This document shows positions 2,323-8,966 of a DNA stretch of 23,370 nt, in pieces. This DNA is from a virus. Positions within the stretch are counted from its first letter, which is position 1. Each line of letters opens with the position of its first letter. A program made the translations under genes and the position numbers. Under the pieces are notes generated by a model. The model saw only the letters and a list, made by a program, of their open reading frames with translations, did no database searches and was not told the origin of the DNA. The stretch covers positions 1 to 23,370 of the IMG/VR virus record IMGVR_UViG_3300027710_000142; one strand, given 5' to 3'.

Positions 2323-3444
2323 TTAGACTTGTAATACACTAGGGTATAATAGTATATTGTTTAAATTTAAATGTTCAAAGTTTACTTCATAACTTGTCTG
2401 TGTTTTTACATAACTCTTTAACTCCTCTATATCTAACTCAGTGTCACAACTCCATCCATCATGTTCTAAGAAATACTTTATTGACCTCTCATCTAAGTAA
2501 CTTCTAATTGAGTCAAGTATAACTCTCTCAAGTTCAAAGTAAACATTCCACTTCTGTCTACTAGTAATTTTACATAACCTCTGCTTACCTGACTTAGTGA
2601 GTCGAGTTCTTCTTTGTAATACAGGTCTTATGTATTCCCAACAAGTTTTAATGTCTGCGATTAACTGCTGTATAAATTCATCTTGTTTTAAGTAGTCAAT
2701 TCTAGCACGATCTCCATTGAGTATGTGATAGATATCTGACTGCGTGTTATTGCTAATAATAGCTCCAGCGAATAGTGCGTTAATGATCTCTTTAACTGCG
2801 GCTGGGTCAAGTTCTAATGCCTGTGCTAGTTCAGCTCTTACTGCTGTTCTATCACTGAGGTATCTACGTAGTGCGAACAAGTATAAGTCCATGGGACCTT
2901 GTTGCCAACGACCATCGACAATTACTTCGGGTATTTGCTGTGCGTATTGATGTATCAGTGTAGGTGCTGAACATACAATGTCATATTGGTGTGTGTAACC
3001 AGCATCTTTAAGCACTTGCTGTTTGTATTGTCTACGATAACGCTGTAATGGATGCCAAAGTCTGTTACTGGTGTCTTTGTAAACGAAGTTGCCACTGCGT
3101 AATTCTTCAGTGTGGTCTTGTTTAGCGACTTGTAATACACTAGGGTATAATAGTATATTGTTTAAATTTAACTTATCTCTAAGTGTTCTAACACCCTCTT
3201 TGTTGAGTCTGTATTCCTTACACTTGTTCTCACTTGAGTTATATCTATAAAACTCATCTGTAACAACTAGTAATGTCTTACGCAAATACTTAGATAAGGG
3301 ATTACTTGAAACTCCAAAGTATCGATCTATATGTCTAGTTGACCAGGGATGACTCTTAGAGTCACTCATAACACCACAGGCAAAGCCAAGGGCTGTTTTA
3401 ATTCGTTTAATGACACGAGGGTCAGTGAAGTTGGGTGTATACAT
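2323..3444 (-). CDS. putative compact polymerase-like protein with N-terminal winged-helix-like domain
   Basis: A 373-aa protein. Residues about 34-91 look like a winged helix (STRHIDRYFGVSSNPLSKYL, then a wing-like EYRLNKEGVRTL). The rest carries three blocks ordered and spaced like family-A polymerase motifs. Motif A-like is YDIVCSAPTLIHQYA with D155. Motif B/O-helix-like is VKEIINALFAGA with K218, and G227 at K+9. Motif C-like is FLEHDGW with H328-D329. The A-B and B-C spacings (63 and 111 residues) are near those of DNA polymerase I (53 and 124). The usual Arg at K-4 and Tyr at K+8 are absent, and no exonuclease domain is present. I chose ATG 3444: the longer frame opening at TTG 3498 uses the -35 box of its own promoter as a start codon. 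The last 15 residues duplicate residues 92-106. The polymerase function is inference. Confidence 0.6.
   Translation of the reverse strand: MYTPNFTDPRVIKRIKTALGFACGVMSDSKSHPWSTRHIDRYFGVSSNPLSKYLRKTLLVVTDEFYRYNSSENKCKEYRLNKEGVRTLRDKLNLNNILLYPSVLQVAKQDHTEELRSGNFVYKDTSNRLWHPLQRYRRQYKQQVLKDAGYTHQYDIVCSAPTLIHQYAQQIPEVIVDGRWQQGPMDLYLFALRRYLSDRTAVRAELAQALELDPAAVKEIINALFAGAIISNNTQSDIYHILNGDRARIDYLKQDEFIQQLIADIKTCWEYIRPVLQRRTRLTKSGKQRLCKITSRQKWNVYFELERVILDSIRSYLDERSIKYFLEHDGWSCDTELDIEELKSYVKTQTSYEVNFEHLNLNNILLYPSVLQV
2326..2370 (-). repeat. 45-bp perfect direct repeat, copy 2 (3' end of gene)
   Basis: Identical over 45 bases to 3127-3171. It encodes the final 15 residues (LNLNNILLYPSVLQV) of the polymerase-like protein and ends immediately before its stop codon. 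Bases differ directly outside both ends, so the repeat is sharply bounded. Confidence 0.95.
3127..3171 (-). repeat. 45-bp perfect direct repeat, copy 1 (inside gene)
   Basis: Encodes residues 92-106 of the same protein in the same reading frame as copy 2, directly after the winged-helix-like domain. The copies are 801 bp apart (267 codons), so recombination between them would delete the whole polymerase-like part in frame. Confidence 0.95.
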
Positions 3445-3469
3445 AATTGTCTCGCACAAATATTTATAT

Positions 3470-3498
3470 AGTGTAACACAAGTGCTAAAATTAGTCAA
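3470..3498 (-). promoter_or_regulatory. sigma70 promoter P3 of the early-type module
   Basis: -35 TTGACT (3498-3493), a spacer of 17, and -10 TACACT (3475-3470), followed by an AT-rich ATATAAATA stretch. It starts 2 bases after the T-tract of the late-module terminator and lies just upstream of ATG 3444. The predicted start near 3463 leaves a leader of about 19 bases. Confidence 0.7.
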
Positions 3499-4227: not shown

Positions 4228-6327
4228 TTATACTGCGGCGTTGTCATGGACATAACTCCAACGACTATTGGTAGTGTCCCAGAATGCCATCATGCCGTTG
4301 GGGTTACCACCACCAGCACTATTTGAAACTATGGCAATTTGTCCCACTGAGCCAGTTATGGCTGTCAACGCTGAGGCTGTGAATACTGCCAGTGTTGTTA
4401 TTGAATTAAAAGTGGTAGGTCCATTGACTGTCAATCCATAGTTGATGGTGTTTGACGTAGTGTTGAAAGTGGCCACTGAGAACTCTTGGCTGTTGCCTGA
4501 ATATAGGCCAACACCTGCTCCATCACCATTGCCGATGCTAATACTACCACCTGGACCATCATTGTCACTGGTTTGTAGGAGCAAGGATTGACTACCTACA
4601 CTGGTAATATATCCTGACCCACTGCCGCTGCCAACTTCTAAGACATTGCCTACACGCCAATTGCCATCTACACCAATGACGTTAAACCCCTGTGATTTAA
4701 TGGCTTTTAGATCTGCGCCAACAACTACTTCATTGGCTGTGGCTGTATTTGTCACTGACAAATTATTCACTGTGGCTGTATTTGTCACTGACAAACTGTT
4801 GACTGTGGCTGTGGTGCCCACTGCCAGGGATTTGGGTAAGGTCAATCCGCCGTGTAAGTCGAACACTGAACTGTTAAATGCTGTGGCACCACCACTGGTT
4901 CTTGTGCCTATGGTAAAGCCTGACGCATCATTGAATATGCCTCGTGTCAGCGGTCCAGATCCAGTTATACCACCACTGCTTAGGAATAGTTGATTGACCG
5001 TGCCAGTGCTGGTTGAAGCGGCTTGAATGTTTAGACTGCCAACACCAGCACCTTGTCCTGGGAAAATCTGCTGTCCAAAGTCAAAGGCAATACCACCAGT
5101 GCGTGTTATAGCAAGTGGTCTTTGTAAGCCAAAGCGGTTCATACCAAATATGATGTGACCACCACTGGTTGGAGGAGTTTGAACTAATACATTGGTTGAT
5201 GAACTTAGGATAACATTGGGTATTAACACTGAGTTGCTTACGCCAATGGTCATTCCAGCCACGGTCATGGTATTGGCTGTGTTGACTGCGAGATCGCTGG
5301 CAACAGTGACAGCAGTATATGTGCCTGAGGGACGAATGGTGTTGACATTTAAGAAACTTTGAGCAGGCGTGTTTTCATTAATGATAACAGCACTTTGTGG
5401 ATTTAAGTAAACATAGTTGAGATTTTCAACTCTCAACGAATCTCCACTATTTTCACCAACAACTCTAAACACACTACTATCTTTGAATAAGTTTAATTTC
5501 GAACTGGCAGTGTCGCCAATGGCTAGTGTAGCCACTGTGGCAGTAGTTGCCACTGTCAGTGATGTCAATGTGCTACCAACTTGATTGCCGTTTAATGTTA
5601 AACTGTTATCAGCATTGATTGAAAGAGCTTGATCATCAAAATAAATTGTGCTGGAACTTACATATAAATGACGGAACTTTTTACTGGGAGATCCTAGATC
5701 AACCGCATTATTTGTCACTGGAATAATGTGATTATTAGGATTCAATACGCTGTTGAATTGAACTCCTCCAGCCCACTGATCAAAGAATAATTTATTGTTG
5801 GTATTTCCAGATTGACCTGTGATGTAGAACTGATTGTCAAAATTTGGAGGACTCTGCCCCCATAACATACGGTTTGTGCCTGTTCCAAACGATAATTCAA
5901 CACCTACGTCCAATTTATTCGTTGCTGTTAAATTGTAGTATGTAGAAGTTGACGAAACAGTGACTGCGCCAGTTGATGTGTTAACACTGACATTTTGACC
6001 AGCAATGATACTAGTGACACCACCCACAGCAGTTGATGAAATAGTCACTGCGCCAGTCGATGTATTAACGCTGATGTTCGATCCAGCAATAATACTAGTA
6101 ACGCCACCCACAGCAGTTGATGAAATAGTTACTTCACCAGTTGATGTGTTAACACTGATGTTTGATCCAGCAACAATACCAGTTACACCGCCAACTGCGA
6201 TGCCTCCTTGAGTAGTGCCATCACCAACATATAATTTTTTACTGTCAGTGGTCCATACTGGTTCTCCGCTGGCAAATGTTTTTGCTGTTCTTTCAGAGTT
6301 AGTGCCTCTGCGTATTTGTAAAGTCAT
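4228..6327 (-). CDS. tail fibre / receptor-binding protein with Mtd-like N-terminus
   Basis: A 699-aa Ser/Thr/Gly/Asn-rich fibre. The N-terminus (MTLQIRRGT ... GEPVWTTDSKKLYVGDGTTQGG, residues 1-42) matches the short domain at the start of many phage fibres and of the Bordetella phage tropism determinant Mtd, thought to trimerise at the tail attachment. Residues 45-128 are three 28-residue tandem repeats. Residues about 500-530 contain 11-residue repeats (LSVTNTATVNN). The C-terminal 50 residues, ending FWDTTNSRWSYVHDNAAV, form a compact tip seen on many environmental phage fibres. No Peptidase_S74 autocleavage domain is apparent. It is the third fibre gene in a row, preceded by AAGGAATAATAAAATG, and likely sits distally in the tail and binds the host surface. 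Confidence 0.8.
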   Translation of the reverse strand: MTLQIRRGTNSERTAKTFASGEPVWTTDSKKLYVGDGTTQGGIAVGGVTGIVAGSNISVNTSTGEVTISSTAVGGVTSIIAGSNISVNTSTGAVTISSTAVGGVTSIIAGQNVSVNTSTGAVTVSSTSTYYNLTATNKLDVGVELSFGTGTNRMLWGQSPPNFDNQFYITGQSGNTNNKLFFDQWAGGVQFNSVLNPNNHIIPVTNNAVDLGSPSKKFRHLYVSSSTIYFDDQALSINADNSLTLNGNQVGSTLTSLTVATTATVATLAIGDTASSKLNLFKDSSVFRVVGENSGDSLRVENLNYVYLNPQSAVIINENTPAQSFLNVNTIRPSGTYTAVTVASDLAVNTANTMTVAGMTIGVSNSVLIPNVILSSSTNVLVQTPPTSGGHIIFGMNRFGLQRPLAITRTGGIAFDFGQQIFPGQGAGVGSLNIQAASTSTGTVNQLFLSSGGITGSGPLTRGIFNDASGFTIGTRTSGGATAFNSSVFDLHGGLTLPKSLAVGTTATVNSLSVTNTATVNNLSVTNTATANEVVVGADLKAIKSQGFNVIGVDGNWRVGNVLEVGSGSGSGYITSVGSQSLLLQTSDNDGPGGSISIGNGDGAGVGLYSGNSQEFSVATFNTTSNTINYGLTVNGPTTFNSITTLAVFTASALTAITGSVGQIAIVSNSAGGGNPNGMMAFWDTTNSRWSYVHDNAAV
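5944..6195 (-). repeat. three 84-bp tandem repeats in fibre gene
   Basis: Three consecutive 28-residue units of the form VGGVTSIIAGSNISVNTSTG plus AVTISSTA. The units differ mainly by synonymous changes and a few substitutions (Gly/Ser, Glu/Ala, Ser/Gln, Ile/Val). They probably build repeating beta-structure in the fibre shaft and could vary in copy number. Confidence 0.9.
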
Positions 6328-6345
6328 TTTATTATTCCTTAATCT

Positions 6346-7245
6346 TTAAATTGGACCTAAGTCAAGCTCAATGGCTGTGGGTGCTAGTATGGTTCCAAAA
6401 TCATAACTCGAACCTGGTAGTGGCAAATCTGTGGGGGTTATCCAAGTAACTTCTTTTGTTGAAGTGTTCCACATCAGCGTTTTAAAGAAGCGAGCTCCTT
6501 TATCTGGAAAATTTTGGTATCCACTGGTCTGTGTTTGTTTAATGGGATTGATTACCAAACCTCCAGGAATACCACTTTGTGGACTGCCTGTTGCGTTTAA
6601 TATAATTCCATTTGTGTTAGGCTGTGCCATATAACTGGCATAGTTTCCAATGTTAATGGCATTGGTCCAACCTTCAGCGTTATTACCTATAACAATAGCT
6701 TCATCATCATAGATGCCTGTGTTGTTACCCAACAAAATACCACTACCAGCAAATATAAAAGAATTTCGTCCAAGAGCAACGCTAGATGGTCCGTTTGCTC
6801 CGCTTTTATCATCTACACGATCCCAAGTAACACGCAGGGTGTTGGCGCTAGTGATTGTTGAATTATCATTAAATGTCAAAGTTCCGTTGACACGAGCATT
6901 AGTGACAGTTAAATTATTAATACCACTTAAATTACTAATTGTTGCTGTGGTAATAACTGCGTTGGCTATGTTTGTAGTGCCGTTGAATGTGGCAGTGGAA
7001 GATATTGTTAACCCACTGCCACCAATGCCACCAACAGTTATACTGCCAGCACTGATGCTGTTGGTCACTGTTAGATTACTAACTGTGTAATTGGATTGAG
7101 TGTTGACAGAATCAACAACCTTCCAAGTGCCATTACCAGCTAGGAATGTGTTTGATGTGGCAGTTGTTGTGGGCGTGTATAAATTATCTGGAACAACCAC
7201 TGATCCATTTGCCAACATTCCACGGGTAATTCTTGTTAATGCCAT
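6346..7245 (-). CDS. tail fibre / adhesin protein, 299 aa
   Basis: A 299-aa fibre-like protein that starts MALTRITRGMLANGSVVVPDNL, an N-terminal signature shared by many phage tail-fibre attachment domains. Low-complexity Thr/Asn/Ser repeats follow (TVSNLTVTNSISAGSITVGG, TISNLSGINNLTVTN). Its second half is related to both halves of the upstream 573-aa protein: W-x-x-V-D-D-K-S-x-A-N-G-P ... LGRNS, then ILNATGS, then a VINPIK ... LMWNTSTKEVTW block. The start overlaps the upstream stop (TAATG) with a strong Shine-Dalgarno (GGGAGACATAATG). It probably forms part of the distal fibre or a fibre cap. It could be a separately encoded tip that trimerises with its neighbours. Confidence 0.75.
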   Translation of the reverse strand: MALTRITRGMLANGSVVVPDNLYTPTTTATSNTFLAGNGTWKVVDSVNTQSNYTVSNLTVTNSISAGSITVGGIGGSGLTISSTATFNGTTNIANAVITTATISNLSGINNLTVTNARVNGTLTFNDNSTITSANTLRVTWDRVDDKSGANGPSSVALGRNSFIFAGSGILLGNNTGIYDDEAIVIGNNAEGWTNAINIGNYASYMAQPNTNGIILNATGSPQSGIPGGLVINPIKQTQTSGYQNFPDKGARFFKTLMWNTSTKEVTWITPTDLPLPGSSYDFGTILAPTAIELDLGPI

Positions 7246-8966
7246 TATGTCTCCCAGTATATAATTTCGCCGGTCGATGTATTGTAAGCCATCATTGAGA
7301 ATCCAGCGGGCAATGTAGCACTAGTGACTTTTCTTATTGGTTTAACATAAAAACTATTTTGTTGCCCTGCCACCCCATTTAACTCACTACCAGAGGCGTT
7401 TAAAATAATAGTGTTATTGCTGGCTGTGGTGTAACCTGCTCGATAACCAATGGCAACGGCGTTGCTACCTTGATTAATATATCCAGCACCATTACCAATA
7501 GCAACAGATTCACTGCCTTGATTAGTATAACCTGCTCCCGATCCCAAGGCAACAGCATCACCACCTTGATTAGTTTGCCCAGCCGCAGTGCCTAGAGCAA
7601 ATGCTCTTTGTCCTTGATTATTTTGTCCAGCTCCATCACCTATGGCAGTTGCCCATCGCTGTTGACCGCTGTTGCCAGCATTGTATCCAATATTAACAGT
7701 TTGTGTTCCAAGACTCCCTCTTCCGGCGCCATTGCCAATTGATACAGAAAGATCACTGGCCTTGACAGTATTGCCAATACCTACACCACCGTTAAATGCC
7801 TGAGCGTCATTTCCAATAGCAACATTAATGCCATCGCCTGTTAGTGCTGTATTACCAATTGCGATACTATTAACATTACTGGAAGTTGAATTTCTACCTA
7901 ACAATATTTGTGTAGGACCATTGGCATTGCTTTTATCAGCCAGTGTTGCCCAAGTTCCGCCACCTACAGATGATGCCGGACCATATGTGATCTCTTTGGT
8001 TGTTGCGTTGTAGTATAATACGCTGGATGTAGCAGTAGATCTAATTGGTGATATATAAGTAGAACTACTAGTCAATGCCGGCAAATAGTCGCCGCTGGCA
8101 TTAATAACAATGGTGTTATTTGGTGATTGTGTTATACTAGATATATGTGTATTAGCAAATTTACCAATAGCTATAGATTCTAAACCTATTCTGCGTCCAG
8201 CATCATAACCAATAGATACTGAACTAGTTCCAGCATTAATTTGACCAGCACTATGACCAATGGCAACAACATTAAAGTTTGGATTGTTACTGGCAGAATT
8301 ATAGCCAATGGCTACACCACGAGCACCTTGATTATTTTGTCCAGCACCTAGACCTATGGCAACTGTTGATGTGCCTTGATAATTTCTTCCTGCGTCTACA
8401 CCAATGGCTACAGCAGTTGGATATTGTGCGCTTAATCCTGCTCCAAGTCCCAGCTTTATTTCAGTGGCAGTTGAATAATTACCAGGAGGACCTGCGGGCC
8501 CAGTATCACCTTTGATTTCTTTGGCTATAAGAATGCTGTAGTATCTTGCTGTAATATTATTTGTTCCAGCGGGTGGTGCTTCGCTGAATATAATGTAGCC
8601 TGTCAACGTGTTATTAACTATTGTAGATGTAGTTGTGTAACTATCATTGGGTATTTGAACTACTCCACCTACTACAACTTGAACGTTTTCTTCATCAACG
8701 GGTGGCACTGATAGTTGAAATTGTGTGGCTACTCCATTGCCATTAAATGTGTCAACTGTGATAACACTGGGTGCTAAAATACTGATAATGCCATTATCAA
8801 CTACTTCAACTACACTGACACTTTGAGTTGCTGTGACAATGTTTGTGGCTGGGGGAGTAACTGTAACAGGCACACCGTCAATGGTTACTGTAAAATTAGT
8901 TACAGGGGCAAGGGTGGCTGTAAAATTGTATTGAACAAGATCGACAGTAAAATTGTTAGCTGCCAT
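7245..8966 (-). CDS. tail fibre / adhesin with collagen-like patch and YadA-like head repeats
   Basis: A 573-aa protein. Residues about 68-145 form a phage-fibre beta domain (FNGNGVATQFQLSVPPVDEE ... VVVGGVVQIPNDSY ... IIFSEAPPAGT), as found in T7-gp17-like adaptors. Residues 153-162 are a collagen-like Gly-x-y patch (GDTGPAGPPG). Two runs of YadA/trimeric-autotransporter head repeats (consensus VAIGxxAGxxNQGxx) occupy about 185-270 and 360-512. Each run is closed by the same block, NxTIVINASG ... YISPIR ... LYYNATTKEITY (283-328 and 517-571). The internal closing block suggests a fusion of two ancestral fibres. It should form a trimeric, beta-rich stalk binding the host surface; the receptor is unknown. 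The Shine-Dalgarno is weak, and it starts 3 bases after the preceding stop. Confidence 0.8.
   Translation of the reverse strand: MAANNFTVDLVQYNFTATLAPVTNFTVTIDGVPVTVTPPATNIVTATQSVSVVEVVDNGIISILAPSVITVDTFNGNGVATQFQLSVPPVDEENVQVVVGGVVQIPNDSYTTTSTIVNNTLTGYIIFSEAPPAGTNNITARYYSILIAKEIKGDTGPAGPPGNYSTATEIKLGLGAGLSAQYPTAVAIGVDAGRNYQGTSTVAIGLGAGQNNQGARGVAIGYNSASNNPNFNVVAIGHSAGQINAGTSSVSIGYDAGRRIGLESIAIGKFANTHISSITQSPNNTIVINASGDYLPALTSSSTYISPIRSTATSSVLYYNATTKEITYGPASSVGGGTWATLADKSNANGPTQILLGRNSTSSNVNSIAIGNTALTGDGINVAIGNDAQAFNGGVGIGNTVKASDLSVSIGNGAGRGSLGTQTVNIGYNAGNSGQQRWATAIGDGAGQNNQGQRAFALGTAAGQTNQGGDAVALGSGAGYTNQGSESVAIGNGAGYINQGSNAVAIGYRAGYTTASNNTIILNASGSELNGVAGQQNSFYVKPIRKVTSATLPAGFSMMAYNTSTGEIIYWET

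Follow-up and report, generated by a model that had tools for sequence, protein, structure and literature searches.

Introduction

The TV-Pol family comprises polymerases with a minimal family-A core that are encoded in mobile elements and are predicted to function in priming (Iyer, Abhiman and Aravind 2008, PMC2579912). CCPol-MP of SCCmec is an A-family primase-polymerase that primes de novo with a ssDNA-binding partner (PMC7581432; PMC10061031); synthesis starts mostly with a purine opposite a template C, and also at a putative origin with the TACCACTTAAT repeat (PMC7581432). The divPolA2 polymerases are found, beside a regular PolB, in Barbavirus and ICP1-like phages with genomes of 80-140 kb (Yutin et al. 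2024, PMC11348598).

Here we compare with these systems a gene from the 23,370-nt stretch of IMG/VR virus record IMGVR_UViG_3300027710_000142 that was analysed as a whole (hereafter, the window). A preliminary description, made from the sequence alone, had read its product as a minimal family-A-like polymerase with a winged-helix-like N-terminus. The predicted fold and the invariant active-site residues support the polymerase reading and place the 373-aa protein in the fold superfamily of family-A polymerases. We regard this protein and its relatives as a new family of candidate mobile-element primase-polymerases of the family-A type, with a fused putative DNA-binding domain and apparent sites embedded in the gene.

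Predicted structure and active site

The polymerase gene occupies positions 2323..3444 of the window on the minus strand, including the stop codon (2323-2325); the ORF (2326-3444, minus strand) starts with an ATG at 3444 and encodes 373 aa, in agreement with the placement and length given previously. A longer ORF starting with TTG at 3498 is unsupported because 16 aligned homologues begin at the matching residue.

In the AlphaFold model, which was built from a 16-sequence alignment (pLDDT 86, pTM 0.67), residues 107-366 (2347..3126, minus strand) form a predicted polymerase core, a palm with a fingers-type insertion. The best 50 rows of the VIA-align comparison are all family-A DNA polymerases, with T7 DNAP on top (6p7e, Z 12.3); for 1t7p, Z is 12.1 and the rmsd is 3.6 angstroms over 222 residues, with residues 109-366 of the model superimposed on 409-702 of the chain. 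In the PDB, Foldseek ranks T7 DNA polymerase and Pol I highest (E 1e-4 to 1e-3), with mitochondrial and phage RNA polymerases at lower rank, and in a comparison with viral models, virophage replication proteins of the TV-Pol type are among the better matches.

The residues that had been proposed as counterparts of motifs A, B and C, namely D155, K218/G227 and H328-D329, are each invariant in all 70 full-length homologues on which the counts were made, and their reported spacing holds (63 residues from D155 to K218 and 111 from K218 to D329). In total, 12 residues are invariant in 70/70 sequences (R128, Q134, Y154, D155, R203, K218, G227, W269, Y302, E306, H328 and D329), far beyond the expectation at roughly 30-60% overall identity, so the motifs are not due to chance. 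In the model, the predicted catalytic Asp of motif A, D155 (codon 2980..2982, minus strand), closes the first palm strand; K218 lies inside a helix that G227 follows (motif B-like fingers helix, 2764..2793, minus strand); Y302 and E306 are located on a long helix; and H328-D329 (motif C, 2458..2463, minus strand) form the turn of the last hairpin (E324-327/E330-333), as in family A. In hhalign comparisons with T7-type DNA polymerases, VKEIINALFAGA of the fingers helix is paired with AKTFIYGFLYGAG, a match that is weak alone (P 0.017).

The palm and fingers fold, the order of motifs A, B and C, and the K218-G227 spacing of nine, which equals that of K758-G767, are shared with DNA polymerase I and T7 DNAP. 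Unlike these enzymes, the 373-aa protein has no Pfam match, contains HDG in place of HDE, and lacks the thumb, the exonuclease, the O-helix Arg and Tyr (RxxxKxxxxxxYG) and the Glu steric gate. The model contains no visible long thumb helices or exonuclease, and only short helices, 103-110 and 112-117, precede the beta-hairpin. The missing exonuclease and the missing O-helix residues had both been reported and are borne out, the former by the total length of just 373 aa and the latter by the variable K218-4 and the lack of a conserved aromatic at K218+8. Every one of the 70 homologues has Ala, Cys or Ser at the steric-gate position, D155+5; given the absence of both the Glu steric gate and a conserved aromatic at K218+8, sugar selection by this polymerase is probably relaxed.

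The likeness to TV-Pols extends to the minimal family-A core, the two predicted catalytic Asp residues, a proposed priming role, an apparent mobile-element context and an invariant Arg in the beta-hairpin preceding the palm (R128, 70/70; codon 3061..3063, minus strand; hairpin E123-125/E128-130 in the model), which by position corresponds to the TV-Pol-type template Arg. In contrast, the RxxxK fingers motif of TV-Pols is lacking, with K218 kept, K218-4 never a conserved Arg, and the invariant R203 fifteen residues earlier; the TV-Pol thumb of two antiparallel helices (coiled coil) is not seen in the predicted model; the N-terminal domain is different; and D5 helicase is missing in the scanned phage contigs. 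Because RxxxK is lacking and the coiled-coil thumb is unseen in the model, we do not file the 373-aa protein as a TV-Pol, although it probably works like one.

With divPolA2, the 373-aa protein shares a thumb-less family-A palm, an extra N-terminal domain and colinear motifs A and C; the hhalign match, which is colinear across both motifs, is weak (P 0.013, E 0.011-0.013 in a single comparison). This profile similarity is not significant (E 0.01), and unlike divPolA2, which accompanies PolB, the 373-aa protein is the only polymerase found. A pattern search of IMG/VR yielded no relatives of divPolA2. As a side result, a hypothetical protein of Vibrio phage ICP1 shows 42% full-length identity to the reference divPolA2 AUR84708, and therefore ICP1 carries an unannotated divPolA2; the observation concerns L169 (MW794152, 57744-59033) and L086 25469-26761.

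The N-terminal domain, residues 1-98 (3151..3444, minus strand), when folded alone with AlphaFold (pLDDT 91), adopts an H-H-H-E-E-H topology, and its structural neighbours are almost all winged-helix regulators. The topology and the neighbour list agree with the winged-helix-like N-terminus suggested earlier; with the best Z just 4.6, we consider a winged helix in the N-terminal ~98 residues no more than likely.

Relatives and genomic context

About 75 relatives, from metagenomes and bacteria, are 28-66% identical to the 373-aa protein. The IMG/VR search yielded 16 relatives with a single protein as the query and 72 loci with an alignment. The reference bacterial genomes added four members, two of these from isolates (Caballeronia udeis LMG 27134 and Janthinobacterium sp. 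SUN073), and a sample of 393 genomes from the family of the Janthinobacterium member contained five matches, four full-length, with the SUN073 genome included, and one partial. In one metagenomic locus (L031), a stop near codon 229 interrupts the polymerase gene at 372-1561 while the remaining protein is still encoded; this could be either a sequencing error or a decayed copy.

Searches of Pfam, PHROGs, NCBIfam and PDB sequences with the 373-aa protein gave chance-level matches only, among them I-OnuI and HTH_65, which were rejected, and PF00476 (DNA_pol_A) did not match it at E up to 10. No profile match to an unrelated family was thus found, and the motif residues are invariant. A tblastn search with three members of the family against 50,697 GenBank phage records retrieved no credible relative, the family profile did not match the Ma-LMM01 record (an uninformative result), and an Rfam scan of the window gave no match. 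We found no description of this family in the literature searched, largely without subscription journals.

Twelve related records of 34-40 kb contain no match to PF00476. Among the 131 ORFs of four near-complete relatives (35-39 kb), Pfam identified terminase, portal, capsid, tail, HNH, ParB, methylase, ferritin-like and GroES-like proteins, but no helicase, primase, polymerase, ligase or integrase, and PHROGs was consistent with Pfam on the missing replication genes among the 25 families listed per scan; this absence is by profile searches, which the polymerase itself escapes, in contigs that may be incomplete. By these searches, the related phages examined have no recognisable replication gene besides that of the polymerase. 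The relatives carry either SU10-like or siphovirus-like structural modules, which indicates that the polymerase gene travels between unrelated phages. No conserved neighbour, such as an SSB or a helicase, was detected across the loci, by a comparison that OB folds without sequence similarity would escape. The bacterial members lie close to tyrosine (integrase) or serine recombinases, in apparent integrative elements.

One genome from the family of the Janthinobacterium member encodes a 519-aa protein that matches the family profile over residues 140-337 (E 3e-18). Its relatives are carried by small plasmids of Polaromonas, close to RepA and a recombinase, in a TV-Pol-like setting. These TV-Pol-like proteins of 500-540 aa (L190 6521-8080, minus strand; L196 37-1653 on pW9NP1; L197 6095-7600 on pH8NP1), encoded on these plasmids and on one chromosome from the Burkholderiales, are annotated as hypothetical or as Clp N-terminal domain proteins; they possibly bridge our polymerase family and the TV-Pols.

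A repeated DNA element at the polymerase gene

The C-terminal 15 residues of the protein (LNLNNILLYPSVLQV) exactly duplicate the inter-domain linker, a feature that is absent from the preliminary description, because an exact 45-bp direct DNA repeat encodes both. The two copies, 801 bp apart, flank the catalytic core at 3127-3171 and 2326-2370 of the window. On the minus strand, the linker copy (3127..3171) consists of the 21-bp motif TACCCTAGTGTATTACAAGTC (3127-3147) and a G-free tract (3148-3171), and the 3'-end copy (2326..2370) has the same composition (motif, 2326-2346; G-free tract, 2347-2370); both score 30.4 bits with a leave-one-out position weight matrix. A weaker inverted copy of the motif (TTATATAGTGTAACACAAGTG; 3464..3484, plus strand; 16.8 bits), 20-40 bp upstream of the ATG, is a possible operator; such a copy is not general because upstream inverted sites of at least 12 bits are present in only 3/58 loci. 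These are the top three motif matches in the 23 kb, all at the polymerase gene.

Most relatives contain the element as well, in the linker, at the 3' end of the gene or in both places. Alignment of all copies gives a bipartite 21-bp motif, approximately TACCCTA[GT]TGT-N4-RC[AT][AG/TC]TC, with ACATATAGTGT as a core variant. On the coding strand, the motif is preceded by a G-poor tract of ~25 nt (0-9% G per 5-nt bin vs 20% gene-wide) that occupies the same place relative to the motif in both copies. Among 59 non-redundant loci, 31 have a linker site of at least 15 bits and 32 have such a site at or just past the stop codon; there are about zero sites of this strength elsewhere in the same loci, and the interior of the core contains none. 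The same two-copy arrangement, with a different repeat sequence, is seen in most of the closer relatives, and about one third of the members, mostly distant, have no clear site. Several distant members have only the 3' site (L050 and L063, and in weaker form L053 and L055). The polymerase gene accounts for most of the best motif matches in those near-complete contigs that bear the repeat, with one strong extra site in one of them (G004). The isolate genome of Janthinobacterium SUN073 contains an inverted site pair around the polymerase gene, and in L040/L041, L049 and L033 the pairs are likewise inverted, not direct, around the core or past the gene.

The window being a metagenomic contig, the 45-bp repeat might be taken for an assembly artefact. 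The architecture recurs with different sequences in dozens of independent assemblies, which refutes this explanation for the family, and the site pair (inverted) of the SUN073 isolate also speaks against it; we give it hardly any credence for the window. Long identical direct repeats that precisely bracket the core could also be recombination sites through which the core would move as a cassette, either leaving as a circle or integrating behind a winged-helix gene. Two contigs, L066 and L068, end within the polymerase gene, 50-120 nt past the linker site, in an apparent branching of the assembly graph that the repeat or a different arrangement could explain. Several observations make a recombining cassette quite improbable: none of the 72 loci shows an empty allele; in some loci the sites are inverted, single or placed around the whole gene; the pairwise identities of the two domains co-vary (r 0.67); and no integrase was detected in the four scanned phage contigs.

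Two reading frames are used across the linker sites and three across the 3' sites, some of which lie past the stop codon, and in many cases the spacing of the copies is not divisible by three. Since one DNA element is translated in several frames, it is conserved as DNA and not as a peptide; conservation of the linker peptide as protein was considered and rejected on the same grounds. The 4-nt spacer is 96% identical between the copies within a genome vs 46% between genomes, and the adjacent 12 nt are 82% vs 43% identical, with no excess similarity past about 30 nt; in the related loci L014 and L036, both copies differ at the same bases. The copies are alike within a genome where genomes differ and therefore undergo concerted evolution. 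The 3'-end site is tandemly duplicated, with a period of about 60-80 nt, in L003 (1033-1176), L007 (1447-1568) and L025 (downstream of the gene), which suggests that the element is prone to duplication. Together with the L018 pair, in which the motif alone is common to the two copies, these duplications suggest occasional copying between sites combined with selection on the motif.

The directionality of the element, with its C-poor product side, is also compatible with a promoter. In that case, the protein would be an RNA polymerase of the single-subunit type, in minimal form, that makes transcripts rather than replication primers, and the motif, read antisense to the gene (GACTTGTAATACACTAGGGTATAATAG), would be its promoter, resembling by eye the T7-type CACTA(TA)GGG. 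The missing Glu steric gate and the RNA polymerases among the lower-ranked fold relatives point in the same direction. Nevertheless, the DNA polymerases rank above the RNA polymerases structurally, and the characteristic HDSF and Tyr639 of T7-type single-subunit RNA polymerases have no equivalents, motif C being HDG[WF] across the family and K218+8 having no conserved aromatic. Moreover, the sites are mostly at the polymerase gene and not ahead of other operons. Therefore, we consider an RNA polymerase unlikely. Of the two functions allowed for in the preliminary description, a replicase is favoured over a transcription enzyme, given that no other replication gene was detected and that the cognate-like sites are mostly at the gene.

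Possible replication mechanism

We consider it somewhat probable that a minimal primase-polymerase/initiator of the family-A type and the DNA sites embedded in its gene constitute a one-gene replication module. The ori of phage lambda sits within gene O, a precedent for an origin inside the gene of its own initiator. Like lambda O and iteron initiators, the 373-aa protein would combine a DNA-binding domain with a following linker whose coding DNA holds repeated sites, and self-contained replicon behaviour is proposed; as with iterons, the repeated sites are in or next to the gene (31/59 linkers and 32/59 gene ends). The difference is that O is not a polymerase, whereas here two putative sites ~800 bp apart flank a catalytic core.

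This likeness opens another route, in which the protein is an initiator that recruits the host replisome to iteron-like sites and uses the polymerase fold for strand transfer, repair or host-primed extension. A winged helix and repeated sites in its own gene would fit such an initiator, as would the lack of a conserved partner primase or helicase gene. Yet the entire polymerase active site is strictly invariant, which argues that catalysis is the conserved function, and we doubt that recruitment is the principal role.

For the one-gene module, the closest parallel is CCPol-MP, which also has an A-family polymerase domain, is encoded in a mobile element without other polymerases, and has, past the replication genes, a repeat taken as a putative origin (TACCACTTAAT in that system, TACCCTAGTGT in ours); the recombinase association is shared by the bacterial members of our family. 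CCPol differs in that it requires the SSB-like partner MP and works with the origin-binding helicase Cch2 (PMC7581432; PMC10061031), whereas in the 373-aa family there is no conserved partner or helicase gene, a winged-helix-like domain is fused to the polymerase, and the sites lie inside the polymerase gene and at its end.

By analogy with CCPol-MP and from the sequence features, the following scheme can be envisaged. The N-terminal winged helix would bind the 21-bp bipartite motif, and the bound protein would melt, or receive in melted form, the adjoining A/T-rich, G-poor ~25 bp; as no helicase is encoded, a host helicase would be needed. The core would then initiate de novo, with the coding strand as the template, placing a purine opposite the C residues of the motif (CCC of TACCCTA). 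Because this template is G-poor, the first ~25 nt of the product would be nearly C-free. Without the Glu steric gate, rNTPs may serve besides dNTPs. The short product would prime replication, with extension by the host replisome or by the same enzyme. The linker and 3'-end copies would represent duplicate origin or priming sites, placed where the protein sequence can vary freely.

More tentatively, and with a lower probability in our estimate, tailed phages and integrative elements might share one-gene replication by a thumb-less primase-polymerase of ~370 aa, the fused winged helix of which recognises duplicate bipartite origin or priming elements in its own gene, with synthesis copying one element onto the other. 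DNA or RNA synthesis would then start without a phage primase or helicase, and the copying would keep both elements identical.

If the one-gene module is confirmed, a replication system will have been identified for phages of 35-39 kb, of at least two unrelated structural types, that have no annotatable replication gene, and the enzyme would be an unusually small phage polymerase-initiator. It would provide a natural test of what a minimal family-A core can do, including de novo initiation and sugar selection without a steric gate. Given the concertedly evolving element pairs, origin recognition and the start of the primer could be tested directly using a single small protein and short DNA.

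Other genes of the window

Two further genes precede the polymerase gene in window coordinates, both on the minus strand: an HNH endonuclease-like gene (1002-1478; phrog_3377, E 5e-24) and a gene for a 109-aa protein (689-1018; phrog_16521), relatives of which are located near the polymerase gene in many loci. The region 4228-8966 (minus strand) encodes tail-fibre-like proteins with internal DNA repeats of 84 bp and 48 bp; by eye, their AIG-type repeats resemble the head-domain repeats of autotransporter adhesins.
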